Below, piece after piece: positions 5,692 through 64,000 of a stretch of 64,000 bases of DNA. Within the stretch, counting starts at the first letter, position 1. Each line of letters begins with the position of its first letter. Both the position numbers and the translations under genes were made by a program. The DNA is from Burkholderiales bacterium (GTDB lineage Bacteria; Pseudomonadota; Gammaproteobacteria; Burkholderiales; Burkholderiaceae_C). The notes under the pieces are model-generated. The model ran no database searches, was not told where the DNA came from, and saw only the letters and a list, made by a program, of their open reading frames with translations. The stretch is taken from the NCBI GenBank assembly GCA_029268225.1, contig JAJUGJ010000004.1, positions 62,001 to 126,000 on the forward strand, written 5' to 3'.

Positions 5692-6114
5692 ATGAAGATC
5701 TTGCTCCCCGTGGATGGCAGCTCTTACACCAAGCGCATGCTGGCCTGGCTGGCCACACATGAAGAATGGATCACTGGCCAACATGAGTTCACCGTGCTGA
5801 CGGTGGTGCCGCAGATCCCGCCGCACGCGGCCGCACTGTTCCCCGCAGACCAACTCAAGTCCTACTATGAGGACACGGCCGAGGCCATCTTCAAGCCCAT
5901 CCGCAAATTCACCGCCAAACACGACATGGCCACGTCCTATCAGGGCAAGATCGGCCACGCGCCGGACGTGATCGCCAAGATGGCCGAGAAGGGCAAGTTC
6001 GACCTGATCATCATGGGCTCCCACGGTCATGGCAACCTGATGAACCTCGTGGTGGGTTCGGTGGCCAACAAGGTCATGGCCTCTTGCAAGACACCGGTGC
6101 TGCTGGTGCGTTGA
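5692..6114 (+). CDS. Universal stress protein (UspA family)
   Basis: A single Usp domain of 140 residues. It begins MKILLPVDGS, the first beta strand with the ATP-contacting Asp, and ends with the G-x2-G-x9-G-S nucleotide-binding signature in GSHGHGNLMNLVVGSVANK. This places it in the ATP-binding subgroup of stress-response proteins, cytosolic and usually dimeric. The open frame extends far upstream, but the ATG at 5692 has GAGGA eight to twelve bases before it and fits the family start. It follows the phosphoesterase gene by 62 bp and converges with a diguanylate cyclase gene whose stop is only 31 bp away. Its partner process is unknown. Confidence 0.93.
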   Translation: MKILLPVDGSSYTKRMLAWLATHEEWITGQHEFTVLTVVPQIPPHAAALFPADQLKSYYEDTAEAIFKPIRKFTAKHDMATSYQGKIGHAPDVIAKMAEKGKFDLIIMGSHGHGNLMNLVVGSVANKVMASCKTPVLLVR

Positions 6115-6145
6115 TCTTCACCTCCGCCAGCGCAGCACACCGCAC

Positions 6146-7246
6146 TCAAACGGTGGCCAACACGCTGCGGTGGCGTCCCGCCGATTTGGCCTGGTACAGC
6201 GCCAGGTCGGCGCGGTGCAAGGTCTGGTCCGAGGACTCGCCCGGACCATGTTCGGCGATCCCCGCCGAAAACAGGATGCGCAGCGTCGGCACGTCCTCGC
6301 TGACGCATACCGTGGCCAGTGCCTCCCGCAGGCGGTCCAGCAACAAGGCAGCGCCCTCTGCGGACGTTTCCGGCATGACGATCAGGAACTCTTCACCGCC
6401 CCAGCGGGCCACGATGTCGGCATCACGTGTCACTTGACGGGCCTGCTGCGCAAAGGCCTGCAAGACGCGGTCACCCATGGCGTGGCCGTGCTCGTCATTG
6501 ACCCGTTTGAAGTGGTCCAGATCGATCAGCGCCATGGCCAGCGGACGATGGTTCCGGTCCTTCAAATGAACATGGTGATCGATGAGTTCCTGTGCGTAGC
6601 GGCGGTTGTACAGACCGGTCAGGCTGTCCCGGTTGGCCAACTCCTGAATGCGGTCCAGCGCGCCTTCCAGCTCGCGTTTGCGGGCGCGCAAGCGACGGCG
6701 CATCTCACCGAACTGTGCACCCAGCAAAGCCGCCATGATCTGCAGGATCAGCAGGATGAGAAAGTGCACGGCCTCAACCGGTGGCGGAAAATTGACCGGA
6801 TCGCGCACACTCATCCAGAGCATGCCTGAGCCCATGGTGAGCAAGGCGTACAGGCTCATCGCCCATTGACGGTCACGTGACAGGCTGAAGGTGCCAAAAG
6901 ACGTCACGGCCACACTCAAGGCAATGAGCGCCCCCCGGAACTCGTGCATCAGCATGTAGGCCACCACGGCCATGGTCTGGCCTGTCAGCATCTGTGCCAC
7001 CGTCAGGGCAGGGTCACGGAAATGCCGCGTCCAGCCCCAACGGACCATGGCGTAGCTGATGAGGCCTGCGGTCAGTGCCGCCCACTGGAACACCCGTGTG
7101 GGCCTGAGATCAGCCACGCCGATCGACAGCGCCACCTCGGCAATCAGCACCCCGAGCAGATAGCTGAAAGCCGCCAGCAGGGTGCGGAGCACATAGCCCC
7201 GCTGCCTCGCTTCGCGTCCCAACAGCACATCCAGCACGAATCGCAC
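6146..7246 (-). CDS. Membrane-anchored diguanylate cyclase (GGDEF)
   Basis: The N-terminal half (about residues 15-185) holds some six hydrophobic helices of no recognised sensor family. A charged linker (MRRRLRARKRELEGALDRIQELA) leads to a C-terminal GGDEF domain. The active-site loop is RWGGEEF (residues 283-287), and an upstream RDAD fits the inhibitory I-site RxxD, so an active, product-inhibited c-di-GMP synthase is expected at the inner membrane. I prefer the GTG start at 7246 because GGAGG lies 5 bases before it; a GTG at 7258 is the in-frame alternative. It is divergent from the double uvrA (162 bp between starts) and convergent with usp. The signal sensed is unknown. Confidence 0.9.
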   Translation of the reverse strand: MRFVLDVLLGREARQRGYVLRTLLAAFSYLLGVLIAEVALSIGVADLRPTRVFQWAALTAGLISYAMVRWGWTRHFRDPALTVAQMLTGQTMAVVAYMLMHEFRGALIALSVAVTSFGTFSLSRDRQWAMSLYALLTMGSGMLWMSVRDPVNFPPPVEAVHFLILLILQIMAALLGAQFGEMRRRLRARKRELEGALDRIQELANRDSLTGLYNRRYAQELIDHHVHLKDRNHRPLAMALIDLDHFKRVNDEHGHAMGDRVLQAFAQQARQVTRDADIVARWGGEEFLIVMPETSAEGAALLLDRLREALATVCVSEDVPTLRILFSAGIAEHGPGESSDQTLHRADLALYQAKSAGRHRSVLATV

Positions 7247-7407
7247 AACACCCTCCACAGCAGAACTTGATTATCCCCATGGGGTTCTGACGCCAAGCTG
7301 TCGCCAGATATTTGCCCCGGCTCAGGTCGTGACTTTCTGGCGTCTCTAGAATGTTTGCGCGCTCATGCCGCGGTATCTCCCTGCGGCAGACCCTTAGAAG
7401 GTGACCC

Positions 7408-10400
7408 ATGTCCGATATCCGCATCCGAGGCGCCCGCCAGCACAACCTCAAGAACCTCGACCTCGACATCCACACGGGTGAACTGACGGTTGTGACGGGG
7501 CCCAGCGGCTCGGGCAAATCCTCGCTGGTGTTCGACACGCTGTATGCGGAAGGCCAGCGCCGCTATGTCGAGACCTTCAGCGCCTACGCGCGCCAGTTCC
7601 TCGACCGCATGGACCGCCCCGCCGTGGACCGCGTGGAGGGCGTGCCGCCGGCCATTGCCATCGACCAGAGCAACCCGGTGCGCACCTCGCGCTCGACCGT
7701 GGGGACGATGACCGAGCTGAACGACCACCTCAAGCTGCTGTTCGCACGCGGGGCGCAGTTGTTCGACCAGGACACCGGCCAGCTGGTGCGCGAAGACACG
7801 CCGCAGTCGGTGTTTGCCGAATTGCTGCGGCGCTGCGCGGCCACACCGGGCGGACGCGGCGTGGTGGTCACCTTTGGGGCGGTGCTGCCGGCCCACACCA
7901 CGCCCGCGCAGATGGAGGAATGGCTGTCGGTCAGCGGCTTTTCGCGCATCCAGGCACAGCGCGTGGTGAAGGCACGTGACCTGCCCTCGGCGGCGTTGAC
8001 CAGTGCGCAGGTGGCGGCCTCGCTGGACGAGGAAGGCGCAGCGGCCAAGAAGAAGCCCGCTGCGAAGAAAACCAGCAAGAAGGCGAAGGATGCTGCCAGC
8101 ACGGAGCTGGAGGACGACGAGCGTCTGGTGCTCGACGTGGTGGCCGACCGCTTCCGCATCGGCGCCGACCCCACTGGCGCCGACCTCGACCGCCCCCGTG
8201 TGATGGAAGCGCTGGAAGTGGCCTTCAAACGAGGCAGTGGGCACATCACCGTATACGCCTTACCCGAATCGGGTGATCAAGGAACCGCCGGGCCGCCCCA
8301 AGGTTCCTTGTCCCCCGCGGGGGGCGGGATGGGCTCTGCCCAGCCCTCGGGGCAGACAGTTCTTGAGCCCGAGCTGTGGCGCTTCTCCGCCGGCCTGCAC
8401 TGCCCGGACAGCCACCGCCGCTACAGCGCGCCCACGCCGGGCATGTTCTCGTTCAACTCGGCAGCCGGTGCCTGCCCGACCTGCCGGGGCTTTGGCCGCG
8501 TCATCGGCGTGGACTGGGGCCTCGTCATCCCCGACGCCAAGAAGACGCTGCGCGGTGGCGCGATCAAGACCATCCAGACCCCCGCCTGGGCCGAGTGCCA
8601 GGAAGAGCTGATCAAGTACGCGGGCGAAGCTGGGGTGCCGCGCGACCTCGCCTGGTCGCAGATGACGCCCGAGCACAAGGCCTGGGTGCTCGACGGTGAC
8701 CCGAACTGGAAGGGCCAGTGGCAGAAGCAGTGGTACGGCATCAAACGCTTCTTCGAGTACCTGGAGAGCAAGGCCTACAAGATGCACATCCGCGTGCTCT
8801 TGTCGAAGTACCGCAGCTACACGCCCTGCCCCACCTGCGAAGGCGCGCGCCTGCAGACCGAGTCGCTGCTGTGGCGCCTGGGCTCGCGCGAAGATGCCGA
8901 CGCGGTGCTGGCCCCGGCCAAGCGCTTCAAGCCCCACGGTGCCGCCCTGCCGCGCGAGGTGCTCGAAACCCTGCCCGGCCTGAACCTGCACGATGTGATG
9001 CTGTTGCCGATCTCGCAGTTGCAGCGCTTTTTCTCCTTCGTCACGCTGGCCCATCAGGAAGACGCCGAGGCCCTGCAGTTGCTGCTCGACGAGATCCGCA
9101 CCCGACTGAAGTACCTGGTGGACGTGGGCCTGGGTTACCTGACGCTGGACCGGCAAAGCCGCACCCTCTCGGGCGGCGAGGTGCAGCGCATCAACCTGAC
9201 CACGGCCCTGGGCACGTCCCTGGTCAACACGCTGTTCGTGCTGGACGAGCCCTCCATCGGCCTGCACCCGCGCGACATGGACCGCATCAACGTGGCCATG
9301 CAGCGCCTGGTCGACGCGGGCAACACCCTGGTGGTGGTCGAGCACGACCCGGCCGTGATGCTGGCCGCCGACCGCGTCATCGACATGGGCCCCGGCCCAG
9401 GTCACCAGGGTGGCCGCATCGTCTTCGATGGCTCACCCGATGAGCTCAAGCGAGCCGAAACGCTGACCGGTGCTTACCTGGGCGCACGCCGCACCATCGG
9501 CCTGGGCCTGCGCCGCCCGGTGGCCGAGAACACCCCGCGCCTGATCCTGCAGGGCGCGCGTCAGCACAACCTGAAGAACCTGAACATCGAGTTCCCGCTG
9601 CAACGCCTGGTGGGCGTGACCGGCGTGAGCGGTTCGGGCAAATCGACACTGATCCAGGACATCCTGCACCCGGCCCTGCTGCGCCACTTCGGTCTGGCCA
9701 CCGACTCGCCCGGCGAACACGACGAGCTGCTGGGCGCCGACTGGCTGAGCGCGGTCAACTTCGTGGACCAATCGCCCATCGGCAAGACCGCCCGCTCAAA
9801 CCCCGCCAGCTATGTGGGCGCGTTCGACGCGGTGCGCACGCTGTTTGCGGTGACGCCGCTGGCGCGCGAACGCAAGTACACCGCCGGCACCTTCAGCTTC
9901 AACGCGGGCACGGGCCGCTGCGCCACCTGCGGGGGCTCCGGGTTTGAGCACGTCGAGATGCAGTTCCTGTCCGACGTGTACCTGCGCTGCCCAGACTGCG
10001 ATGGCACCCGCTTCCGCGCCGAGGTGCGCGAGGTCACCATCGAGCGCCTGAACAAGAAGCTCAGCATTTCCGACGTGCTGGAGCTGACCGTGGCCGAGGC
10101 CGTGCGCCTGTTCGCGCAGGATGTGGACGTGGTGCGCGCGCTGCAACCACTGGCCGATGTGGGCCTGGACTATGTGAAGCTGGGGCAGCCGGTGCCGACG
10201 CTCTCGGGTGGGGAGGCACAGCGGCTGAAGCTGGCCGGTCATCTGGTCGAGACCGCGCAGCAGGCCAGCAAGTCGCGCCAGAAGCTGGCGCGCAAGGGCA
10301 CGCTCTTCATGTTCGACGAGCCGACCACCGGCCTGCACTTCGACGACATTGCCAAACTGATGCGCGCCTTCGCGAAGCTGCTGGACGCGGGCCACTCCAT

Positions 10401-13564: not shown

Positions 13565-14749
13565 TCAGTCGTCGAACTCGACCTCCGTGGCCAGCAGCGT
13601 GCGCCCATCCGCCTCCAGCATCGCGCTGACCTCGACTTTGGCATTGAGCGCCAACTGCGCGAGGCCACCGTCCTCGAAGCGCGTGCTGTCGTTGTACTTC
13701 ACCTTCACTCCGCGCAACTCAAAGGTCTTCTGAACGGTGTCCAGTGCGGTGATGCGCCCCTGGACTTCGAAGCCCTCATCACCGTCCAGACGCTGCTCGC
13801 GCTCCACCTTGCTCGCGGTCAACACGCCGTCATGGAGTCGGCCTTCCACTTCGACCAGGCTGCCCTGGGCCAAGCCGACCGGCAAGGTCACGCTGGCGGT
13901 GTCCACCCGCACCCCATTGACCACCAAGCCCGTGATCTGTGCGCCCTGGTAAATCACCTCACTGACCACCCCCTCCAACTCGGCCTTCAGCGACTGTCCG
14001 GCCACCAGACTGGTGGGCGCACGCAAGCGAGTGAGCACCCACGCGCCGCCCTGCTGACCCGTGGCCACACGCACGTCGACCACCTGCCCCTCGGCCAAGG
14101 CTGGCTGTGTGGCCAGCGACGCGTAAGACAAGGTCGCACCGCCGATGTTGAACCTTCGGTTGACCGGGTCCAGCGCCGTCACCGGTCCACGCAGCTTGTA
14201 ATCGTCCGTGTCGTCTTCGAGATCGATGCGGGTGGCCGTCAGCACCCCATCCTGCCCCACATGCCCATAGACCTCAAGCCGCTGCCCCACGGCCAGACTC
14301 GTTCGGCCATTCACCAGGTCATCGTCGAAGAACGTCGCCGGGGTGAGACGCACGGACTGCCCCAGCACCGTGAGCATGTCGCCCGCGATGGCCGTCAACG
14401 GCCCCTCCACTTCGCTGCGTGTGCGCACCGCCGAGGCCTTGGCCGTCGGCAAGCCGGTGGGCGATGCCGTGGGCGCCGAGGCCAGCACCTCGACCACCAT
14501 GCCCAGCTTGAGCGCCTCGCTCGCCAAGGTGACACCCTCATCGCTGCTCACGCGCGCCTGTGTCTCGTCATAGCGCACCCCATTGACAATGATCGAGCCA
14601 AAGCCCTCGATGCTGCCTTGTGCAAAGTTTGACGGCGTGGCCGCGTTGGCATCAGCACCGCCCCCACCACCACAAGCGGCCAGTGCCGCCAGTGACACCG
14701 CAGCCAGCCCCCAAGCACCCGATTTGGACCAAGACTGAAAACAAGACAT
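13565..14749 (-). CDS. DUF5666 repeat lipoprotein
   Basis: From the ATG at 14749 the 394-residue product has a lipoprotein signal ending LAALAAC followed by a five-glycine run, so lipid attachment at that Cys is expected. The body consists of repeated DUF5666 beta-strand modules of about 60-70 residues. Each pairs an 'EG-x-I...NG-V-x-V' strand with an 'L-x-V-G-x-x-V-E-V-x-G' strand, for example GSIEGFGSIIVNGVRYD and ALNAKVEVSAMLEADGRTL. These OB-like repeats are common in exported proteins of Burkholderiales; I know of no established function. A longer start at 14779 exists but would put ten extra residues ahead of the signal. It is convergent with the double uvrA and divergent from the PepSY operon. 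Confidence 0.8.
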   Translation of the reverse strand: MSCFQSWSKSGAWGLAAVSLAALAACGGGGGADANAATPSNFAQGSIEGFGSIIVNGVRYDETQARVSSDEGVTLASEALKLGMVVEVLASAPTASPTGLPTAKASAVRTRSEVEGPLTAIAGDMLTVLGQSVRLTPATFFDDDLVNGRTSLAVGQRLEVYGHVGQDGVLTATRIDLEDDTDDYKLRGPVTALDPVNRRFNIGGATLSYASLATQPALAEGQVVDVRVATGQQGGAWVLTRLRAPTSLVAGQSLKAELEGVVSEVIYQGAQITGLVVNGVRVDTASVTLPVGLAQGSLVEVEGRLHDGVLTASKVEREQRLDGDEGFEVQGRITALDTVQKTFELRGVKVKYNDSTRFEDGGLAQLALNAKVEVSAMLEADGRTLLATEVEFDD

Positions 14750-14861
14750 GAACGTATCCAGCAAAAAGTGAAGATGCACGCATTGTCAAAAACGCATCCT
14801 GAACCCAGGCTGAACCACTCGTTCATGGACGGTTTAAGGACGCTGCGATAAGCTTTCGCGC

Positions 14862-15566
14862 ATGAACCGCCTCCTTGCCTGCCTGCTGCCCCTCGTGTGC
14901 GCAACGGCCCTGGCCGCCACCAGTCAGGACGAGATCCGGCGTGCCGTGCAGGCCGGTCAGGTCAAACCGCTCAGCGACATCCTCCACCTCGTACAGCAAC
15001 GCACCCCCGGACGGGTGCTGGACGTCGAACTGGAGCAAGGCCATCAAGGCCAGCGCTGGTATGAGATCAAGCTGCTGACCCCGCAACAGCAGCGCATCGA
15101 GTTGTACGTTGATGCGGTCACCGGTCGCGAGATCAAGAAGCCAGAGCACGGCACGGGCCGCCTCCTGCCCATGGCCCAGGTCTTGCGGCAGGTTCAGTCC
15201 CAACACAGCGGCTTGATCGTCAAAGCAGACCTCGAAGAGGAGCGCGGCGAACGGCCGGTGTACGAGATCGAGTTGCTGAGCACCGATGGCCGCGACATCG
15301 CCTTGCGCGTCGACGCCATCACGGGTCAGGTGCTGCGCAAGGGCCGCTTTGACCCCGCCCTGCAGGCCACCTTCGTGGCCTTGCCGCCCCTGCTGGAGGC
15401 CCTGGCCCAACGCTTTCAGGCCCACATCAGCGAAGTGGAACTCAAGCGGGGCGGTCACCCCCCCTGGCTGTACGAAGTCGAGATGCGACTGCCCAACGGT
15501 CGCACCCAGGAAGTCTGGGTGGATGCCCAGACCGGCCGCACCCTGCAGCCCCACGAGATCCGCTGA
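14862..15566 (+). CDS. Periplasmic protein with three PepSY-like repeats
   Basis: A Sec signal peptide (MNRLLACLLPLVCATALAA) is followed by three PepSY-like modules at about residues 20-75, 95-160 and 170-234. Each ends with the typical strand pattern YE-I-x-L-L...L-x-V-D-A-x-T-G (ELYVDAVTGREI, ALRVDAITGQVL, EVWVDAQTGRTL). PepSY domains are small periplasmic or extracellular modules thought to inhibit or scaffold partners. The stop codon overlaps the start of the response-regulator gene (TGATG), so it is the first gene of a three-gene operon and is probably the periplasmic input or modulator for the histidine kinase at 16236. No clear Shine-Dalgarno is seen. Confidence 0.85.
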   Translation: MNRLLACLLPLVCATALAATSQDEIRRAVQAGQVKPLSDILHLVQQRTPGRVLDVELEQGHQGQRWYEIKLLTPQQQRIELYVDAVTGREIKKPEHGTGRLLPMAQVLRQVQSQHSGLIVKADLEEERGERPVYEIELLSTDGRDIALRVDAITGQVLRKGRFDPALQATFVALPPLLEALAQRFQAHISEVELKRGGHPPWLYEVEMRLPNGRTQEVWVDAQTGRTLQPHEIR

Positions 15567-16249
15567 TGCGCGTCCTGATTGTGGAAGACGACGAAGTGCT
15601 GGCCCGCGCCCTGCAACAGGCGCTGCAGCACGCCGGGATGGTGCCCGACGTCTGTCATGACGGCCACCAGGCTCAGGTGCTGGGCTGCGTCGAGCGCTAC
15701 GACGCCGCTGTGCTGGACTTGGGGTTGCCGGGCCAGGATGGCCTCTCCACCTTGCGCCACTGGCGCGAGCAAGGCCAGCACCTCTCGGTGCTCGTCCTCA
15801 CCGCACGCTCACGCTGGAGCGACAAGCTCGATGCCTTCCAGGCCGGTGCGGACGACTACCTCACCAAGCCCTTCCTCGAAGACGAGGTCGTCACCCGACT
15901 GCGGGTGCTGCATCGCCGCCACCAGGGACGTGCCACCCCCATCGTCACCGTGGGCCCCTTGCGCTACGACACCATCGCCGACCGCTTCCAGCTCGATGAA
16001 CGCCACCTGACCCTCACGGCCCAGGAGCAGCGCATCCTCGCGCACCTCATCCAGCGTGCAGGCCAGGTCGTCAGCCGCGCCGACATCGCCGAGCACGTCT
16101 ACGCACGCGACCTGGACCCGGACTCCAACACCCTGGACGTCCTGATTGGCCGCATCCGCCGCAAGCTGAGCCCCTACACGCTGATCCACACCGAGCGCGG
16201 ACGAGGTTATCGCCTGGCCCTGAAAGAGGACCCTGATGCGCTGGCATGA
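15566..16249 (+). CDS. OmpR/PhoB-family response regulator
   Basis: The 227-residue protein has a receiver domain (residues 1-115) with acidic pocket EDD at 7-9, phospho-acceptor Asp51 in AVLDLGLPG, and the Lys of YLTKPF. A winged-helix DNA-binding domain follows (about 125-220, ending HTERGRGYRLAL). It is a transcription factor controlled by phosphorylation. Its ATG overlaps the PepSY stop by 1 bp, and its 3' end overlaps the kinase gene by 14 bp, so the three proteins should be made together and the kinase at 16236 is the obvious phosphodonor. Target genes cannot be told from the sequence; many such systems regulate their own operon. Confidence 0.93.
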   Translation: MRVLIVEDDEVLARALQQALQHAGMVPDVCHDGHQAQVLGCVERYDAAVLDLGLPGQDGLSTLRHWREQGQHLSVLVLTARSRWSDKLDAFQAGADDYLTKPFLEDEVVTRLRVLHRRHQGRATPIVTVGPLRYDTIADRFQLDERHLTLTAQEQRILAHLIQRAGQVVSRADIAEHVYARDLDPDSNTLDVLIGRIRRKLSPYTLIHTERGRGYRLALKEDPDALA

Positions 16250-56713: not shown

Positions 56714-57379
56714 TCAACGTGCGGTCGATCTGCCGACTGGGGCGCGTGCGAAAGCGGGGATGCAGCTCAAGAGCCAGTGCGAGGGCCACCAGAGCAAAAC
56801 CAGCAGCGCCAGCATCAACACACCGAGGTACAGATGCGGCGGCATCCAGGTCTGCGCCCCCTGGCCATCCAGACCAAACACGAAGTTGACATTCACCGGC
56901 AAGCCCGGTTGATCCGCGGGCGCAGGCGGTGGCGGCAGCCACAGGTAAGACGCCAGCATGGCCGCCCAACTGATCGGCCACCACACCACCAGCCCCCGAC
57001 GGTCATAGCCCAGCCGCCACAGCAGCCAGACCAGCACCGGTGGCTGCCAGAAATGGAAGAACGACAGAAAGCGGGTGAACCACGGGATGCGGGGCTCGTA
57101 CATGTAGGTCGTCATCCCGGTGATCGGCCAGCCTAAGCCCGTAAGCAGGAAGTCCAGCATCCACAAGACCTGGGGCAGCAAGATGCCCACCGCGCAGGCG
57201 GACACCAGCACGGCCGACTCCATCCAGAGGGCCACGCCGGTGAGCAGCAGCGCTAGATCGCAGAAGTACAGGAAATTACCCGGCCCGTAGTGGTACCAGT
57301 AGGTGGGCACCAGCACCGCCACGAAGGCGGTGTAGAGCAGCTTGAACCACAAGGGCAGGCGCGACGCAGTCGGTGTCAT
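56714..57379 (-). CDS. Polytopic membrane protein, paralogue A of a tandem pair
   Basis: The 221-residue protein is very hydrophobic and aromatic-rich, with about six helices. It is clearly paralogous to the next gene. Shared blocks include YTAFVAVLVP, NFLYFCD, SACAVGILLPQ, PITGMT, RFLSFFHFW, RLGYDRRG and PGLPVNVN. I do not recognise the family. The ATG at 57379 (MTPTASRLPLW) aligns with the paralogue's start. It is the last gene of the phospholipid block, 71 bp after its paralogue, and ends before the uvrA upstream region. Membrane lipid handling is a guess from position only. Confidence 0.8.
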   Translation of the reverse strand: MTPTASRLPLWFKLLYTAFVAVLVPTYWYHYGPGNFLYFCDLALLLTGVALWMESAVLVSACAVGILLPQVLWMLDFLLTGLGWPITGMTTYMYEPRIPWFTRFLSFFHFWQPPVLVWLLWRLGYDRRGLVVWWPISWAAMLASYLWLPPPPAPADQPGLPVNVNFVFGLDGQGAQTWMPPHLYLGVLMLALLVLLWWPSHWLLSCIPAFARAPVGRSTAR

Positions 57380-57450
57380 GCCCCGATGCTGCGCCAACCA
57401 TCCCGCTGCTGTCCAGCCGCCTGGTGCATGACAGGATCACCCTTGACGCG

Positions 57451-58110
57451 TCAGCCCCGCGATGACCGGGCAAAGCGCTTCAACACCAGGTGCGTGGGCA
57501 TCCAGATCATCAAAGGCAAGGCCACCAGCATCGCGCCAAAAAACAGATGAGGAGACATCCACGTTTGCGGTGCCTTGTCATTGATCCCGAACACGTAGTT
57601 CACGTTGACGGGCAATCCTGGGTTGCTGGCTGGCGCCGGAGGCAAGGGCAGAAACAGATACGACACCCACATGGCTGCCCACCCCAAGGCCCACCAAACC
57701 CACAGGCCTCGCCGGTCATAGCCAAGTCGCACCACCAACCAGATGAGCACCAAGGGCAGCCAGAAATGGAAAAACGAGAGGAACCGAGCAAACAGCGGAA
57801 TGGCATCCTGGAACATGTAGCCCGTCATGCCGGTGATGGGCAACCCCACCCAGGTCCCCAGAAAGTCCACCATCCACAAACACTGCGGCAAGAGAATCCC
57901 GACCGCACAGGCAGATGCCAGGACGGCCGATTCGCGCCACATGGCCACACAGGTGAGCAGCAGGGCAATGTCGCAGAAATACAGGAAGTTGGTCGGGCCA
58001 TAGGCCTGCCAATAATGAGGCACCAATACCGCCACGAACGCGGTGTAAACAAGCTTGCTCCACAGAGGCAAACGGGGTGCAGAACGAGAATTCACAGCAG
58101 CAGTCGTCAT
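57451..58110 (-). CDS. Polytopic membrane protein, paralogue B of a tandem pair
   Basis: The 219-residue protein starts MTTAAVNSRSAPRLPLWSKL and has about six hydrophobic helices. By eye it is roughly two thirds identical to the following gene over the first 190 residues, with near-identical loops (GILLPQ-x-LWM-x-DF, RFLSFFHFW, RLGYDRRGL) and a conserved polar end PGLPVNVNYVFG...QTWMSPHL. Family unknown. Its ATG overlaps the stop of the CdsA-like gene (ATGA), a sign of coupling, so it probably belongs to that pathway. The conserved Asp, Arg and Asn residues in loops could be functional. The open frame upstream of 58110 lies in the neighbour gene and is not used. Confidence 0.82.
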   Translation of the reverse strand: MTTAAVNSRSAPRLPLWSKLVYTAFVAVLVPHYWQAYGPTNFLYFCDIALLLTCVAMWRESAVLASACAVGILLPQCLWMVDFLGTWVGLPITGMTGYMFQDAIPLFARFLSFFHFWLPLVLIWLVVRLGYDRRGLWVWWALGWAAMWVSYLFLPLPPAPASNPGLPVNVNYVFGINDKAPQTWMSPHLFFGAMLVALPLMIWMPTHLVLKRFARSSRG

Positions 58111-59078
58111 CAAGGAACCCACCAGAAACGAATCACATGAAAGAACATGGGGGCAGCAAACACCACGGAGTCCAGGCGGTCCAACATGCCGCCATGGCCC
58201 TCGATCAAGGTGCCCCAATCCTTGACACCTCGATCTCGCTTGATCGCCGACATGACCAGCCCCCCCAGAAAGCCCATGAGGCAAATGGCCAGCGCAATCA
58301 GGGCCGACTGCCAAGGCGTGAACGGCGTGATGGGATACAAAGCCGCCCCCAGCAACGTGGCCGACAGCACGCCCCCTACCAAGCCCTCAACGGTCTTCGA
58401 CGGGGACAACTCCGGAGCCACCTTGCGCCGCCCCAGCAACTTGCCCCACACGTACTGCAGCACGTCACTGCCCTGAACCACCACGATGAGGTAGGCGATC
58501 AAGAGCAACTCACGACCTTGATAGCCGGGAATGTTCAGCGTCAGCAACGCCGGCACATGCGACACGCAGAACACGCAGATCATCAAGCCCCACTGCATCT
58601 TGGCCGTGCGCTCGAGAAAGCGCGTCGTGTCACCGCGCAAACTCGCCAGAATCGGCAAGACCAGAAAGACATGCACCGGGATGAAAATCGAGAACAAGCC
58701 GTACCACTCGATCCAGATGAGGAAGTACTGCATGGGCAAGGCCACATAGAACATCAAGACCATCGCCATGTGGTCTCCCGCCCGGGTGTAGGCCAGGGTG
58801 ATGTACTCACGCAGTGCCGCAAACGACATGAAGGTGAACAACAGGATCACGGCTGTCTTGCCCAACACAAAGGACAAGCCGATGAGTGCCACCATCACCC
58901 ACCATGCCTTGATGCGACTGTTGAGGTTGTCGATGACGCCATGAGGCTGACCGCGTGCCACGCGCCACTTGAGCACGCCACCGATCAAGGACGCCAGCAG
59001 CAACACGGCCAAGGTGCCAGCAAAGAGCCAGCGGGTCATCTCATCGTGCAGCAAGGCGGGCATCGTGGACATCAACAT
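58110..59078 (-). CDS. ynbB: CDP-diglyceride synthase-like (phosphatidate cytidylyltransferase, YnbB-like)
   Basis: This 322-residue, roughly eight-helix protein carries the CdsA signature SAIKRDRGVKDWGTLIEGHGGMLDRLDS. The S-x-x-K-R, KD, HGG and DRxD residues bind metal and CTP, so it should make CDP-diacylglycerol from phosphatidate and CTP. It is the counterpart of E. coli YnbB, a CdsA paralogue in a similar gene set, and is probably not the housekeeping copy. Start candidates are ATG at 59078, which overlaps the acyltransferase stop, and ATG at 59072. The downstream membrane-protein gene overlaps by 1 bp. Its product would feed the CDP-alcohol phosphatidyltransferase at 63363. Confidence 0.9.
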   Translation of the reverse strand: MLMSTMPALLHDEMTRWLFAGTLAVLLLASLIGGVLKWRVARGQPHGVIDNLNSRIKAWWVMVALIGLSFVLGKTAVILLFTFMSFAALREYITLAYTRAGDHMAMVLMFYVALPMQYFLIWIEWYGLFSIFIPVHVFLVLPILASLRGDTTRFLERTAKMQWGLMICVFCVSHVPALLTLNIPGYQGRELLLIAYLIVVVQGSDVLQYVWGKLLGRRKVAPELSPSKTVEGLVGGVLSATLLGAALYPITPFTPWQSALIALAICLMGFLGGLVMSAIKRDRGVKDWGTLIEGHGGMLDRLDSVVFAAPMFFHVIRFWWVP

Positions 59079-59776
59079 GAGAGGCTTTCGGCAGGACGCA
59101 AGGCCAGCACGGCGTCACGTGCACGCACCAGGAAGGCGTCCTTGGACTCTTGAGGCAAACGTTCCAGCGGCGCACCAAAGCTCACCGTGCAGATCAGGGG
59201 CACCGGAATCCACTCCCCCTTGGGAATCACGCGGCGAATGTTGTCGATCCAGACGGGGATCAGTTCGGCATCCGGATACTGCTGCTCCAGGTGATACAAC
59301 CCGCTTTTGAAAGGCAGCAGGGGGCTCTCGCTGGTATTGCGCGTGCCTTCTGGAAAAATGATGAGGGAGTCGCCTTCCGACAGGGTTCGCGCCATGTGAT
59401 CCACCGGCGATGGCTCGCCAGGTTGCGGACTCCGATTGATCAACAAAGCCCGGAACACCTGCGACGCCACAAAGCGCCGCATCCCAGAGGCCAGCCAGTA
59501 ATCTTGCCCGGCAACCGGACGGGTCATCCGCCTGAGTGCCGGTGGCAACGACGCCCAGATCATAACGAAATCACCATGACTGCCATGGTTGGCAAAGTAG
59601 ACGCGCTGGACTGCGCGTGGCACGGTGCCTTGCCACAAGGGCCTGACCCCGGTGGCCACTCGCGCCACCCACAGCAAGCCACCGCCCACCACCCAGGCTG
59701 CACATCGAAGAAGCCATGCGCCGAGAGACCCGCCGGTCCTCGACATGTTGCGCATGGCTGTACGGCTTTCCTGCAT
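59072..59776 (-). CDS. 1-acyl-glycerol-3-phosphate acyltransferase (PlsC-like)
   Basis: The 234-residue protein has one N-terminal hydrophobic helix and a PlsC domain with the catalytic NHGSHGDF (H-x4-D) and the glycerophosphate-binding FPEGTRN motif. It should acylate lysophosphatidate to phosphatidate at the inner membrane. ATG at 59776 overlaps the upstream stop codon (ATGA), so I prefer it to the longer frame from 59830. It lies directly before the CdsA-like gene, supplying that enzyme's substrate. E. coli ynbABCD, as I recall it, has no acyltransferase gene, so this is an addition to the set. Confidence 0.9.
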   Translation of the reverse strand: MQESRTAMRNMSRTGGSLGAWLLRCAAWVVGGGLLWVARVATGVRPLWQGTVPRAVQRVYFANHGSHGDFVMIWASLPPALRRMTRPVAGQDYWLASGMRRFVASQVFRALLINRSPQPGEPSPVDHMARTLSEGDSLIIFPEGTRNTSESPLLPFKSGLYHLEQQYPDAELIPVWIDNIRRVIPKGEWIPVPLICTVSFGAPLERLPQESKDAFLVRARDAVLALRPAESLSC

Positions 59777-60228
59777 CAAGACACCCACCATAAGTAAGCC
59801 GCAGATCCCCCGGCCTGCAAGACACTCCACGCGGCAAGGCTGCGATACAGGCGCAGAGCCCCCGCCACACGCTGCGGCAGTGACCGCGGCGAGGGCTCAC
59901 GTTCACGCCCTCCCGTTGGGCGCCCCTGCACCACCCGCTGAAGAGACGCATCAAGCACAACGCCCTCCGACAAGGGGCCATCGGAATGGGCCATGTCATG
60001 GAACAAGCGGGCATCGAGGTGGACGCGTACGGCCCACCAAGTGCCCAGCATCCACGCGGCACACAGCACACACCACGCCATCAGGTCATGCCTCGCCCAG
60101 ATCGAGAACGCCGCGGGGGCACCACAGATCATCATCAACCCCCACCACCAGCGTCCGGTGGCAAGGACAGAGGCACACACCGCGCTATCGGCTCTTTCAG
60201 CAGTCGACCAGGTTGAAGGCTGGGTCAT
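59776..60228 (-). CDS. Small membrane protein of unknown function in the phospholipid block
   Basis: The 150-residue product has two or three hydrophobic segments (about 28-45, 50-66 and 130-148) with Trp-rich ends and a polar, arginine-containing middle (QGRPTGGREREPSPRSLPQR). I recognise no family. Its start overlaps the stop of the PAP2/dual-specificity phosphatase gene, and its stop overlaps the acyltransferase start, both as ATGA. Coupled translation on both sides argues that it is real and part of the same membrane pathway. Function unknown. Confidence 0.7.
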   Translation of the reverse strand: MTQPSTWSTAERADSAVCASVLATGRWWWGLMMICGAPAAFSIWARHDLMAWCVLCAAWMLGTWWAVRVHLDARLFHDMAHSDGPLSEGVVLDASLQRVVQGRPTGGREREPSPRSLPQRVAGALRLYRSLAAWSVLQAGGSAAYLWWVS

Positions 60229-61577
60229 GCCCCCTGCTCCCGCTCAGACGCTGTATCGATGGCCAGGGCAACGGCTGCCTTGAGGGCAGGGCGCAACACG
60301 ACCTGGGGGCGCTTGGCGCGGACCCAGGCTTCCGCAGCATCCAGCGAAGCGCACCGCCCCGAGATGACCAGCCAGGCCATCACCACGGCGGCACTTCGCG
60401 AAACGCCCAGCGCACACGAGACCAGCAATTTGTCATCGGCCCCCATGCGCTCAACCATGGACTGCACATGGTCAGCGGCGTCACGCAGCTGCCGCGCGCT
60501 GGGCGGACTCAGATCCAGCATGGGCAAGCTGAGCATGCCAGGGTGTCGCAACGACAGCTCTGCCGTGAGGTCCAGCACACGCTCAAAGCGCCGGTGATCA
60601 GCCTCCCAAGGCAACGGCAAGCGTCCCAGCCACACCTGATCCGCAATCGCCACACTGCTGGGCCAGCGCCACGTCCAACATCGGGCGTTCAGCCAGGCAA
60701 ACAAGCACAGAGGCGCCAGCAACAACGCGGTGGCCACGGCATGCTGCCCCTGTGGCCCCTTTTGAAACACTGCATGGCCCCAGCGGACATACGCCAGTCC
60801 AACCCACAAACAACTCACCGCGGGCCACCACAACCACCAGGCCACGCGACTCCAGGCTTCGCCGACAGACCAGGCCACCATGGCCAACAATGCAGCGCCC
60901 ACCAGATAAGCACTGCCCAGCCCCATATGAGAACGGCGTGCGCCGTGTGACACCCGCCACGGTGGACTGTCATGCAAGGGCCAAGCCCACATGCACACGG
61001 CCCCGGCCAGCAAACCCGTGGGCACGTCGATGAAATGGTGCTGATAGGTGGTCAACACCGACACGCCGATGAGTGCGCTCCAGATGTGCAGAACCCAGGC
61101 CCAACCACCTCCTAATCGCTGACGGTAAAAATCCCACAAGATCAGCAACAGCACGATGTGCAGCGAGGGTGCCTGGTTGTAGGGCAAGTCAAAGCCTGCC
61201 AAGGCATCGAACAAGACACCAGCCCAACCGTCAACCTCCGGACGCTCCGTCGAGAACTGCAAGGGCCACAGCAGGAAACAGCCGACACACAGGATTTGCG
61301 CCGACAGCAGGCGCTGAACCTGCCTTCTCAACTCGCGACGATTGCGCGCAATCAACAAGGAGAGGCCATAGAACAGGTCGATCGACCAATATGGCAGGAT
61401 GGTCCAGGGCAGCAACGGAATGGCCGCCTCCCATTCGAACTTGATGCTCGAAACCTGAGAAGAAGCGGCAGCCAGTTGATTGGCCAGCCCGTAAGTCCAG
61501 AAGAAAAAGGGCGCCAACAACAGCAGGGCCAGAGCCCCGGGCTGCCAATGGGGCGCCAACCGGGTCAAGGTCTTCAA
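60225..61577 (-). CDS. ynbD: PAP2-like and dual-specificity phosphatase fusion (YnbD-like)
   Basis: The N-terminal two thirds is a multi-helix PAP2-superfamily domain of the Aur1/sphingomyelin-synthase kind, with NQAPSLHIV (His140) and TYQHHFIDVPTG (His181, Asp184). The C-terminal third is a cytoplasmic dual-specificity phosphatase with the P-loop SCALGVSRSAAVV (Cys388, Arg394); the usual His before the Cys is Ser here. This architecture matches E. coli YnbD. It could dephosphorylate a phosphatidyl-alcohol phosphate, or transfer a head group. The start is uncertain: TTG at 61577 has GAGGGTGG upstream and overlaps the previous stop as other genes here do; GTG at 61622 is the longer alternative. 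Confidence 0.85.
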   Translation of the reverse strand: MKTLTRLAPHWQPGALALLLLAPFFFWTYGLANQLAAASSQVSSIKFEWEAAIPLLPWTILPYWSIDLFYGLSLLIARNRRELRRQVQRLLSAQILCVGCFLLWPLQFSTERPEVDGWAGVLFDALAGFDLPYNQAPSLHIVLLLILWDFYRQRLGGGWAWVLHIWSALIGVSVLTTYQHHFIDVPTGLLAGAVCMWAWPLHDSPPWRVSHGARRSHMGLGSAYLVGAALLAMVAWSVGEAWSRVAWWLWWPAVSCLWVGLAYVRWGHAVFQKGPQGQHAVATALLLAPLCLFAWLNARCWTWRWPSSVAIADQVWLGRLPLPWEADHRRFERVLDLTAELSLRHPGMLSLPMLDLSPPSARQLRDAADHVQSMVERMGADDKLLVSCALGVSRSAAVVMAWLVISGRCASLDAAEAWVRAKRPQVVLRPALKAAVALAIDTASEREQGA

Positions 61578-63379
61578 GCCACCCTCACCTTCACGGCCAG
61601 CGAGACGGTGAAGATACCCCACTCATCAATGCGCTGCGTCACCTTGCGGAAGCCTGCCGCCTCCACCAACTGGTCCATCTCCTGCTGCGTGCGACGGCGC
61701 ATCACCCAGGCCTGGCCTTGTCGGTGACTGGTCAAGGCGCGCGCGATCATCTCCAACTGAGGGTGCCACGGCTGACCGGTGTAGACCAGGCAAGCCCCTT
61801 CGGGCATGGCATCGGCGATGCCCGCGAGCGAGCGACTCACCATGGCATTGTCGGCAAACAGCTCGTACAAGCCCGAGACGACGGTCACTGTGGGCGCAGG
61901 GTCAGTGGTGGCCAGCGACGCACGGTCGAACGCATCGGCCTTCACAAATCCCGCACGACCTTGCAAACCGCGTGAAGCGATCAAAGCGCCACCATCCCGA
62001 ACGTTGATGTCGCTGTAATCACGCAGCAGGATGGAGGTCGGCTGTATCGATGAATTGGCCACGGCATCCAGCACGTAGCGCCCGTGTCCTGCGGCGATGT
62101 CCATCAGTCGGACGGGCAGGCCCTGCTCCCGAATGCGGCCCATGGCCGCACCCAGCAGTTCTTCGACATGCTGCTTGCGCACCCGGATACCGCGCCAGCC
62201 GATGGACTGCAGGTAGAACCAGTCGACCAACCGCCCCACGGGCCCCACACCTGACGCTTGGTTTCGGTACACGTAATCCAGGGTGCTGCCCGAATCAAAG
62301 CCGGTGTCATGCCCCAGCCGAATCCCGTGCGACAACCAGCCCCCGATGCGCAGCCCGGCTCGTGTGAACGCCCAGTACCAGGCGCGTGGCGACCAGGCCG
62401 ACAAAGGACGAGACAGGGACTGGGCTTCCTCGTACGTGGCGCCGGCGTGATCGGCTGAACGGACATCGACCGATCTGGACTCCGCGGCAAAGCACCGCTG
62501 CACAAAGGCCTGGATGCGAGCCAGTGCGAGATGCCGGTCTTTTTCGCCCAAGGTGTCGTGGTAGAAGCCCGGTAGCTCGTGGACTTCCTTGACCGGACTG
62601 CCGAGATCCTTTGCGAACCGTCGCTGAGGCCCCTGATGAACCACCCAATCAGCCCCCGAAATCAGCACCTGCGTCGGCACGGTGATGGCAGCGGCATCGG
62701 CCACCACACGCTCGGCCGCCTCATACAAACCCAGCAGGATGTGCGAGGCGATCGGACGGGCGATCAGGGGATCCGACTCATAGCTGGCAATCCGGGCCGG
62801 GTCGTGCGTCAGGAACCGGGCCTTGACATAGCTGTTGACGAAAAACGGACCCACGATCTGCTGCCACGCGCGAATCCCCATTCGTGCGAACGGGACGTAC
62901 AGCTTGACCTGAAAGGCCGGCGACGCCAGGGACATGCCTCGGATGGGGGGTGCGTAGTCATGCACCCACGTTGACACCAACACCGCCCCGACACTCTGGG
63001 CCACGACAAAGACCTCGGGCAACGCGATGCCATGCTGGCTCTTCAAGTGGTCCATGAAGGTCTGGATATCGCGGACCGAGGTGCCGAAACTGGGGCTGAA
63101 ACCCCGCGCGCCAGGCGACTCACCGTGGCCACGGGCATCCCATGCCACAAAGGCCATATCGGGCAAGTTCAACTCATCAACGAGATGGGCCATGCGACCA
63201 CCATGCTCGTGCCCGCGATGGAAGAGCGCGATCGTGCCACGGCGCGCACCCGACACGGCGGGCCAGTAGCGGTAACGGAGCATCACGCCATCGTGCGTCT
63301 GAAACGACAGAAGCTGCGGCGTGCGTGTGGTGGTCATCGCTGGCGACGCCAGATGGTCTTGATCAAGCACTGCGTTCAT
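61574..63379 (-). CDS. ynbC: Alpha/beta hydrolase fused to SAM methyltransferase (YnbC-like)
   Basis: This 601-residue soluble-looking protein joins two enzymes. Residues about 20-300 are a monoacylglycerol-lipase-like alpha/beta hydrolase (FHRGHEHGGRM, DARGHGES, nucleophile Ser in VAQSVGAV, late His in PGFYHDTLGE). Residues about 380-600 are a class I methyltransferase (motif I LMDIAAGHGRYVL, later VVSGLYELF and VYTGQPWHPQ). The same fusion is E. coli YnbC. It may trim an acyl chain and methylate a lipid head group, but substrates are unknown. The ATG at 63379 overlaps the end of the ynbA-like gene by 17 bp, and its stop overlaps the next gene. Confidence 0.9.
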   Translation of the reverse strand: MNAVLDQDHLASPAMTTTRTPQLLSFQTHDGVMLRYRYWPAVSGARRGTIALFHRGHEHGGRMAHLVDELNLPDMAFVAWDARGHGESPGARGFSPSFGTSVRDIQTFMDHLKSQHGIALPEVFVVAQSVGAVLVSTWVHDYAPPIRGMSLASPAFQVKLYVPFARMGIRAWQQIVGPFFVNSYVKARFLTHDPARIASYESDPLIARPIASHILLGLYEAAERVVADAAAITVPTQVLISGADWVVHQGPQRRFAKDLGSPVKEVHELPGFYHDTLGEKDRHLALARIQAFVQRCFAAESRSVDVRSADHAGATYEEAQSLSRPLSAWSPRAWYWAFTRAGLRIGGWLSHGIRLGHDTGFDSGSTLDYVYRNQASGVGPVGRLVDWFYLQSIGWRGIRVRKQHVEELLGAAMGRIREQGLPVRLMDIAAGHGRYVLDAVANSSIQPTSILLRDYSDINVRDGGALIASRGLQGRAGFVKADAFDRASLATTDPAPTVTVVSGLYELFADNAMVSRSLAGIADAMPEGACLVYTGQPWHPQLEMIARALTSHRQGQAWVMRRRTQQEMDQLVEAAGFRKVTQRIDEWGIFTVSLAVKVRVA

Positions 63380-63998
63380 GCGCTCCCCTGATGCCCGCTT
63401 GGACGCGGTTGTAAATGGAACAAGCTGTCAACAAGGCGATGCATGGCAACCCACAGGTGATGAGGGCATGCCAGGCAGCGTGTGAATCGGCTTCATGCCC
63501 GCCCGTGGCCACAACCAGCCCCAAAAAGCCAAAGACGAACGCCCGGTCACTTTTGCCCATCGGCCCGTCATAACGGCGTTCACCACCGACCACGGCCCCC
63601 TGGATGCCAGCCATCTCGGAGAGGGCGGCCAGCAATGCGATCACACAAATCCAGAAGGGATCGAAGGGAGCGATGCGGGCAAATGGCAAATACAGCGCCG
63701 CATCCGACACGACGTCGGTCAACTCATTGAGATAAGCGCCCAGCACCGATTGCTGTCCGTGCTCGCGCGCCAACATGCCGTCGATGGCATTGAGGGCCAT
63801 GCGACACAGCATCCAAACGGGGATCAGGGCAAAACACCAGGTCGGGAGAGGCAAGCCATACAAGGCCACCCCGAGAGCGACAGACAGCACGCAGGCTGAG
63901 ACGGTCACCTGGTTGGCGGTCACGCCGGCACGGAACAGCGTGCGAACCAAGGGGCGCAACAGCGCCTGAAAACGAGGCTTCAGTTGATAAATCGACAA
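63363..63998 (-). CDS. ynbA: CDP-alcohol phosphatidyltransferase-like protein (YnbA-like)
   Basis: The 211-residue, six-helix protein has the CDP-alcohol phosphatidyltransferase motif in modified form: NAIDGMLARE, then GAYLNELTDVVSD. Two of the four metal-binding Asp positions (D1 and D3) are Asn here. From memory E. coli YnbA has the same Asn pattern and the same start (M-x-x-YQ-x-KP), so this is a subgroup trait rather than decay. It would join a head-group alcohol to CDP-diacylglycerol. The start is TTG at 63998, two bases from the window edge; a longer start outside the window cannot be excluded. It is the first visible gene of the phospholipid block. Confidence 0.87.
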   Translation of the reverse strand: MSIYQLKPRFQALLRPLVRTLFRAGVTANQVTVSACVLSVALGVALYGLPLPTWCFALIPVWMLCRMALNAIDGMLAREHGQQSVLGAYLNELTDVVSDAALYLPFARIAPFDPFWICVIALLAALSEMAGIQGAVVGGERRYDGPMGKSDRAFVFGFLGLVVATGGHEADSHAAWHALITCGLPCIALLTACSIYNRVQAGIRGAHERSA

Positions 63999-64000
63999 GG

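Follow-up and report, generated by a model that had tools for sequence, protein, structure and literature searches.

The window analysed here, a stretch of 64,000 nucleotides from a Burkholderiales bacterium (assembly GCA_029268225.1, contig JAJUGJ010000004.1, positions 62,001 to 126,000 of the forward strand), ends in a run of eight minus-strand genes which, on balance, we take to be an operon of the type known as arc1 in Pseudomonas aeruginosa and ynbABCD in Escherichia coli, providing a second route of phospholipid synthesis or resynthesis that stands apart from housekeeping lipid synthesis and keeps the membrane intact when phospholipids are cut. Membership of the Ynb family is well supported. 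The genes encode a CDP-alcohol phosphatidyltransferase (YnbA), a hydrolase fused to a methyltransferase domain (YnbC), a phosphatase (YnbD), a small membrane protein, a PlsC-like acyltransferase and a CDP-diglyceride synthase (YnbB), followed by two paralogous membrane proteins, G and H. In P. aeruginosa, PA2541-36 have been named arc1A-F, a defence cluster under Gac/Rsm control, and arc1 is required for survival of this bacterium under attack by the Burkholderia thailandensis type VI secretion system (Ting et al. 2022, PMC8926400), while arc1A helps the cells to resist lipase effectors of the TseL and Tle1 types (2025, PMC12663445). The initial annotation had taken the locus for an undescribed, "expanded" operon; the cluster itself is known and its core widespread, the six-gene form being the ordinary and commonest one in the surveyed loci and corresponding by context to P. 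aeruginosa arc1, for which a phenotype is published.

The six-gene core

Relatives were collected through the methyltransferase domain of YnbC, Methyltransf_20 (PF12147); within the window's family 22 of 250 genomes carry it, and within the phylum 27 of 398. The survey set comprises 47 distinct genomes including the window's own, with one stretch per genome, which leaves weak second matches in G626 and G450 outside it. Neighbours were counted from single-pass searches with overlapping frames removed, and some contigs, such as those of L061, L064 and L069, are too short for a whole operon. Of the 47 loci, 31 (the window and 30 others) have the full one-strand order YnbA-YnbC-YnbD-(small protein)-PlsC-YnbB, and since the same order recurs so often the arrangement is not a matter of chance; the window's YnbC has both of its domains, hydrolase and Methyltransf_20. 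Where YnbD and the acyltransferase neighbour each other, a hydrophobic open reading frame (ORF) of 121-183 amino acids lies between them in 31 of 32 loci, L062 being the sole exception by this crude measure; in most loci the small protein is recognised by its position and hydrophobicity. The five larger core proteins have distance matrices that correlate at r = 0.77-0.93, with none of 999 permutations as high for each of the ten pairs, and within the thresholds used the neighbour survey of the 47 loci revealed no further gene cluster recurring in more than 5 of them. From the recurring order, the correlated distances and the lack of any other recurrent neighbour it follows that the core is a self-contained, co-inherited unit.

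Other arrangements exist. Five loci of the window's family (L070-L074) lack a PlsC gene and carry YnbB-YnbC on one strand, YnbA and YnbD on the other. The remaining 11 of the 47 loci are partial or otherwise arranged, and around the weak PF12147 match of L101 no ynb genes are visible.

In the window, the eight genes occupy the region 56714-64000, as read from the ORFs and the sequence:

Gene A, 63363-64000, minus strand: ynbA/arc1-type CDP-alcohol phosphatidyltransferase (Pfam PF01066, 3.2e-07), with its probable ATG start at 64004, past the window's end
Gene C, 61574-63379, minus strand: ynbC-type alpha/beta hydrolase fused to a methyltransferase domain (Hydrolase_4, 5.5e-67; Methyltransf_20, 1.5e-145)
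Gene D, 60225-61577, minus strand: ynbD-type protein with a membrane PAP2-like domain and a dual-specificity phosphatase (DSPc and PAP2_3 in aligned members)
Gene E, 59776-60228, minus strand: small membrane protein of the six-gene core (no Pfam or NCBIfam family above cut-off)
Gene F, 59072-59776, minus strand: PlsC-like acyltransferase (PF01553, 1.8e-15; the open frame reaches a GTG at 59830)
Gene B, 58110-59078, minus strand: ynbB-type CDP-diglyceride synthase (PF01148, 6.6e-68)
Gene G, 57451-58110, minus strand: membrane protein paralogue 1, accessory (family without a Pfam model)
Gene H, 56714-57397, minus strand: membrane protein paralogue 2, accessory (143 residues identical with gene G)

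The tight junctions between eight same-strand genes that had been described are confirmed, neighbours overlapping six times by 17, 4, 4, 1, 7 and 1 base pairs (bp) in order. YnbA and YnbC share 17 bp (63363-63379), YnbC and YnbD 4 bp if YnbD starts at the TTG at 61577 (49 bp if at the GTG at 61622), YnbD and the small protein 4 bp, the small protein and the acyltransferase 1 bp (ATG at 59776), the acyltransferase and YnbB 7 bp, and YnbB and gene G 1 bp (ATG at 58110). Genes G and H are separated by 53 bp (TTG at 57397) or 71 bp (ATG at 57379), this being the second junction figure that varies with the choice of start codon. The likely start of YnbA is the ATG at 64004, four bases beyond the window's end, since the form of the same genus begins MALSIYQLKP. 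Also past that end lies pyrF, upstream of ynbA and ending some 160 bp from it, with purB further out; downstream of the eight-gene run lies uvrA (56638-53621). All three flanking genes are named by NCBIfam.

Terminal membrane proteins and lysophospholipid repair

The initial annotation expected the genes additional to ynbABCD to be conserved beside them, which holds for the acyltransferase and the small membrane protein and fails for the two terminal membrane proteins, which are not part of the conserved system. The family of gene G has relatives in 245 stretches of a species-level genome collection, and the figures given here on its loci refer to the best 80 of these. Going by record titles, members come from Planctomycetes, Verrucomicrobia, Bradyrhizobium, Hymenobacter and other groups; all five of the best named relatives bear the genus name Aquabacterium, the best at 92% identity, so that to judge by this protein the window's lineage is very probably Aquabacterium. 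In an alignment of fifty members from several phyla, comprising both copies of the window and 48 hand-picked loci out of the 80 kept, identity to gene G is 48-92%, and certain tyrosine, asparagine, cysteine, aspartate, glutamine, arginine and histidine residues are invariant.

The confident AlphaFold2 model of gene G (predicted local distance difference test score 93.4) has no match in the PDB at E <= 0.001 by Foldseek, a profile search of PDB sequences with the family returned none at E <= 1, and neither G nor H has a family above cut-off in Pfam and NCBIfam. A TMEM164-like acyltransferase (PF14808) was considered and rejected, with 1 of 50 members matching at E 0.033, none of 12 genomes over the cut-off and none in the window's genome; Bac_export_1 (6.3e-4) and PAP2_3 (9.6e-4) each matched 1 of 50 members, which we take as chance.

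It is quite conceivable, if short of probable, that the terminal genes are passengers adjoining an ordinary Arc1 operon without contributing to its pathway, which would be compatible with any other reading of the locus. Only 2 of the 80 family loci, both Aquabacterium, lie beside ynb genes (several of the 80 are short contigs). Of 150 genomes of the window's family, the window's own is the only one in which the family was matched, and G159, a genome of the same genus with one copy after ynbB, was outside that draw; G033, also of this genus, has no copy. Among six loci compared, gene H scores best against L111, where the relative is not beside ynb genes (437 bits, against 300 for gene G), the five Aquabacterium loci scoring lower. 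Against passengers speak the 1 bp by which gene G overlaps ynbB, the four Aquabacterium-lineage loci in which gene G follows B (the window, L059, L102 and L103), and the adjacency of the family to LplT/Aas genes elsewhere. In 15 of the 80 loci, a gene adjoining or near the membrane-protein gene on the same strand is LplT-like in 13 cases, twelve of these at no more than about 140 bp, and in 2 cases an Aas-type acyltransferase-ligase; an NCBIfam scan of 10 of these 15 loci agrees, with the LplT model under its own cut-off. The reading we favour for the family is that of an accessory to the handling of (lyso)phospholipids, one which became joined to the Arc1 operon in Aquabacterium.

The LplT query used on the membrane-protein loci also matches two of the ynb loci. 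In L062, an LplT-acyltransferase fusion (5883-7823) immediately precedes ynbA, both being encoded on one strand. In L063, such a fusion (14140-16029) lies about 1.3 kb downstream of ynbB, again on the same strand and with one ORF between; the operon of L063 is without a PlsC gene. The window's genome has an LplT-acyltransferase fusion of its own, elsewhere than in the operon.

Enzymes of the proposed route and competing readings

The Pfam and NCBIfam domain calls match those of the initial annotation and bear out its family assignments, and conserved motifs run through the core enzymes. YnbC keeps S.GAV and D.A.G.GRY in 47 aligned sequences, the PlsC-like protein NHxSHxD and FPEGTRN in 34, and YnbB the signature GHGG..DR.DS in 38. 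In YnbD, CX5R and PSxH/H...D are invariant, and at E <= 0.01 DSPc is recognised in 39 and PAP2_3 in 32 of the 41 members that were aligned (from 44 available sequences, omitting the partial L061 and the near copies L089 and L090), with the PAP2 domain of the window's YnbD itself under the Pfam cut-off. The window's genome has separate PgsA and PssA (NCBIfam cut-off) and, on contig C11, a second CdsA-like PF01148 gene that falls below the E. coli CdsA equivalog cut-off. E. coli YnbB cannot replace lost cdsA (PMC6362211, given there as 'data not shown'), and E. coli YnbD does not complement mutants in phosphatidylglycerophosphate phosphatase or undecaprenyl pyrophosphate phosphatase (PMC7413402); a distinct substrate fits this failure of both to replace the housekeeping enzymes. 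Together with the conserved motifs, these observations support the dedicated phospholipid route that had been proposed.

YnbA departs from its family in a consistent manner. It scores 31.3 bits against PF01066, above the cut-off of 22, and all 44 aligned proteins, among them E. coli YnbA, show the signature N..DG..A...G...NE..D...D (the alignment draws on the window, L003 and loci within L055-L099). Asparagine stands in all of them at D1 and D3, the first and third catalytic aspartates of the CDP-alcohol phosphotransferase signature, and D2, D4, a further aspartate four residues on and the glutamate adjoining N3 are all invariant. The two other PF01066 genes of the window's genome keep the canonical four aspartates. 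Asparagine at D1 and D3 is unusual for a family that is not decaying. No description of this feature was found in the literature, nor was a publication on YnbA biochemistry recognised by title or abstract opening among the matches listed. As for a viral link, the YnbA pattern matched 6 stretches, none of which was confirmed.

The structures closest to the YnbA profile are phosphatidylinositol(-phosphate) synthases and AF2299, the nearest PDB entry being a synthase chain of this kind, 6h53 (1.9e-11). YnbA nonetheless falls short of the NCBIfam equivalog cut-off for phosphatidylinositol-phosphate synthase (49.9 bits against 170) and of that for archaetidylinositol-phosphate synthase (63.2 against 180). 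It does not keep the KARAE segment of phosphatidylinositol-phosphate synthase, which serves there in binding inositol phosphate, and a search of the window's genome, about 95% complete, gave no match to inositol-1-phosphate synthase. A phosphatidylinositol product is thus disfavoured, and inositol is an unlikely head group.

In the most economical model of a damage-responsive route, lysolipid would be re-acylated, converted to CDP-diacylglycerol and built into a distinct phospholipid. The PlsC-like enzyme would re-acylate lysophosphatidate or a lysophospholipid, YnbB would activate phosphatidate to CDP-diacylglycerol, and YnbA, through its atypical active site, would transfer the phosphatidyl group to some alcohol or phosphoalcohol. 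The two phosphatase/transferase domains of YnbD may trim or transfer the head group, the hydrolase of YnbC may strip acyl chains off a damaged or intermediate lipid, and its methyltransferase half may modify the product. The small membrane protein could be a conserved subunit or scaffold, and the two terminal membrane proteins would be an addition of the Aquabacterium lineage from a family that partly lies beside LplT/Aas repair genes. We infer all of the catalytic steps from the chemistry of the families, and likewise a methylated product and a route that is closed; the phenotypes in defence come from published work on P. aeruginosa.

The model of the initial annotation, a standing pathway for an undescribed and probably methylated phospholipid that is not primarily a damage response, we regard as possible but doubtful. 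It accounts for the full set of enzyme families leading from lysophosphatidate to a head-group-modified lipid, for the conservation of catalytic motifs, that of the methyltransferase half included (the loci having been chosen by this domain), and for E. coli enzymes that are not interchangeable with their housekeeping counterparts (PMC6362211, PMC7413402). The basal expression of arc1 is, however, very low in P. aeruginosa and is induced via Gac/Rsm (PMC8926400), which argues against a standing membrane component there, and the literature found on the cluster reports no lipid product.

It is unlikely that YnbA is no working phosphatidyltransferase and that the hydrolase, phosphatases, acyltransferase and CdsA-type enzyme constitute mainly a module for turnover of lysophospholipids and lipid phosphates. 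The exchange of D1 and D3 for asparagine in 44 of 44 YnbA proteins, with canonical PgsA and PssA in the same genome, would agree with such a module, as would the genomic links to LplT/Aas, but the invariance of D2, D4, the further aspartate and the glutamate next to N3 is not that of decay. PA2541 is presumably the YnbA-type gene, encoding the CDP-alcohol phosphatidyltransferase. Its deletion lowers survival under attack (PMC8926400), which again argues for a working enzyme. That the locus serves as a side route to the glycolipid MPIase, a role which has been proposed for YnbB of E. coli, is very improbable, since YnbB overproduction does raise MPIase in E. coli but ynbB deletion does not significantly change it (PMC6362211), and such a route has no role for YnbA, YnbC, YnbD and the acyltransferase, although they are inherited together.

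Several observations weigh against a second, damage-responsive route. YnbA is without two canonical aspartates and departs from the four-aspartate signature DxxDGxxAR...G...D...D. The LplT fusion occurs in only 2 of the 47 ynb loci (L062 and L063), and 12 of the 15 LplT/Aas-linked membrane-protein loci are verrucomicrobial by record title and known taxonomy, so that shared descent may be behind much of this link. All ynb loci were chosen via PF12147, hence forms without YnbC would be missed. The window's operon matches P. aeruginosa arc1 by gene context, not by direct alignment of P. aeruginosa sequence, and Arc3A/DUF2339 is not matched in the window's genome. In PMC8926400, no single tested B. 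thailandensis effector mutation restores arc1-deficient cells, and arc mutants survive heat, peroxide, salt and detergent like the wild type; as the protection looks broad and survival of these stresses is unaltered, a lysophospholipid or general membrane role is at this point a proposed one. For arc1A, an auxiliary role next to arc3A is suggested (PMC12663445). The gene meant by arc1A is itself not certain, since the passages of PMC12663445 that treat it give no PA number and PMC8926400 writes arc1A-F for PA2541-36 but uses Arc1F in its methods where its strain table has pa2541.

Tentatively, the preferred reading of a second route may be extended. YnbA/Arc1A may be a distinct class of CDP-alcohol phosphotransferase with a rebuilt metal site (asparagine at D1 and D3, the invariant glutamate and the further aspartate) which, together with a dedicated CdsA, acyltransferase, phosphatase and methyltransferase, would make a lipid with an undescribed head group that resists phospholipase or replaces the lipids it has cut; in Aquabacterium, two membrane proteins of a family with links to the repair of lysophospholipids would have joined this system. 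With the connection drawn between ynbABCD of E. coli K-12 and arc1 of P. aeruginosa, the six-gene core defined, and an invariant non-canonical site in YnbA and genomic ties to the repair of lysophospholipids found, the lipid and the acceptor alcohol of this orphan cluster become accessible to chemical test.

Relation to known systems

LplT/Aas repair has a PlsC-type acyltransferase in common with the window's operon and is physically linked to it in two relatives, as it is to the family of the terminal membrane proteins, whereas its transporter and acyl-ACP synthetase domains are absent inside the operon. CDP-alcohol phosphotransferases of the phosphatidylinositol-phosphate synthase and AF2299 type are like YnbA in the extra aspartate after D4, and YnbA differs from them by the asparagines at D1 and D3.

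In P. aeruginosa, arc1A-F (PA2541-PA2536) comprise six genes, like the window's core. PA2537, annotated as a probable acyltransferase (PMC2246019), and PA2536, annotated as a probable phosphatidate cytidylyltransferase (PMC8190622), stand in the places of genes F and B, and PA2541 is among the known RsmA targets (PMC4066749). A P. aeruginosa pattern derived from published primers was absent from all 25 genomes searched of the genus g171, presumably Pseudomonas; three loci of g171 have an A that begins with MIS and a B that begins with MN, as in the published PA2541 and PA2536 primers, a weak resemblance in that MIS also occurs in L077, of another genus. The window's operon differs from arc1 by the two added membrane-protein genes. 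Of E. coli ynbABCD (b1408-b1411), all four genes have homologues in the window's operon, but in E. coli K-12 they stand in the order A-B-C-D, and the operon is without acyltransferase or small membrane protein, E. coli ynbABCD being a smaller form of the cluster.

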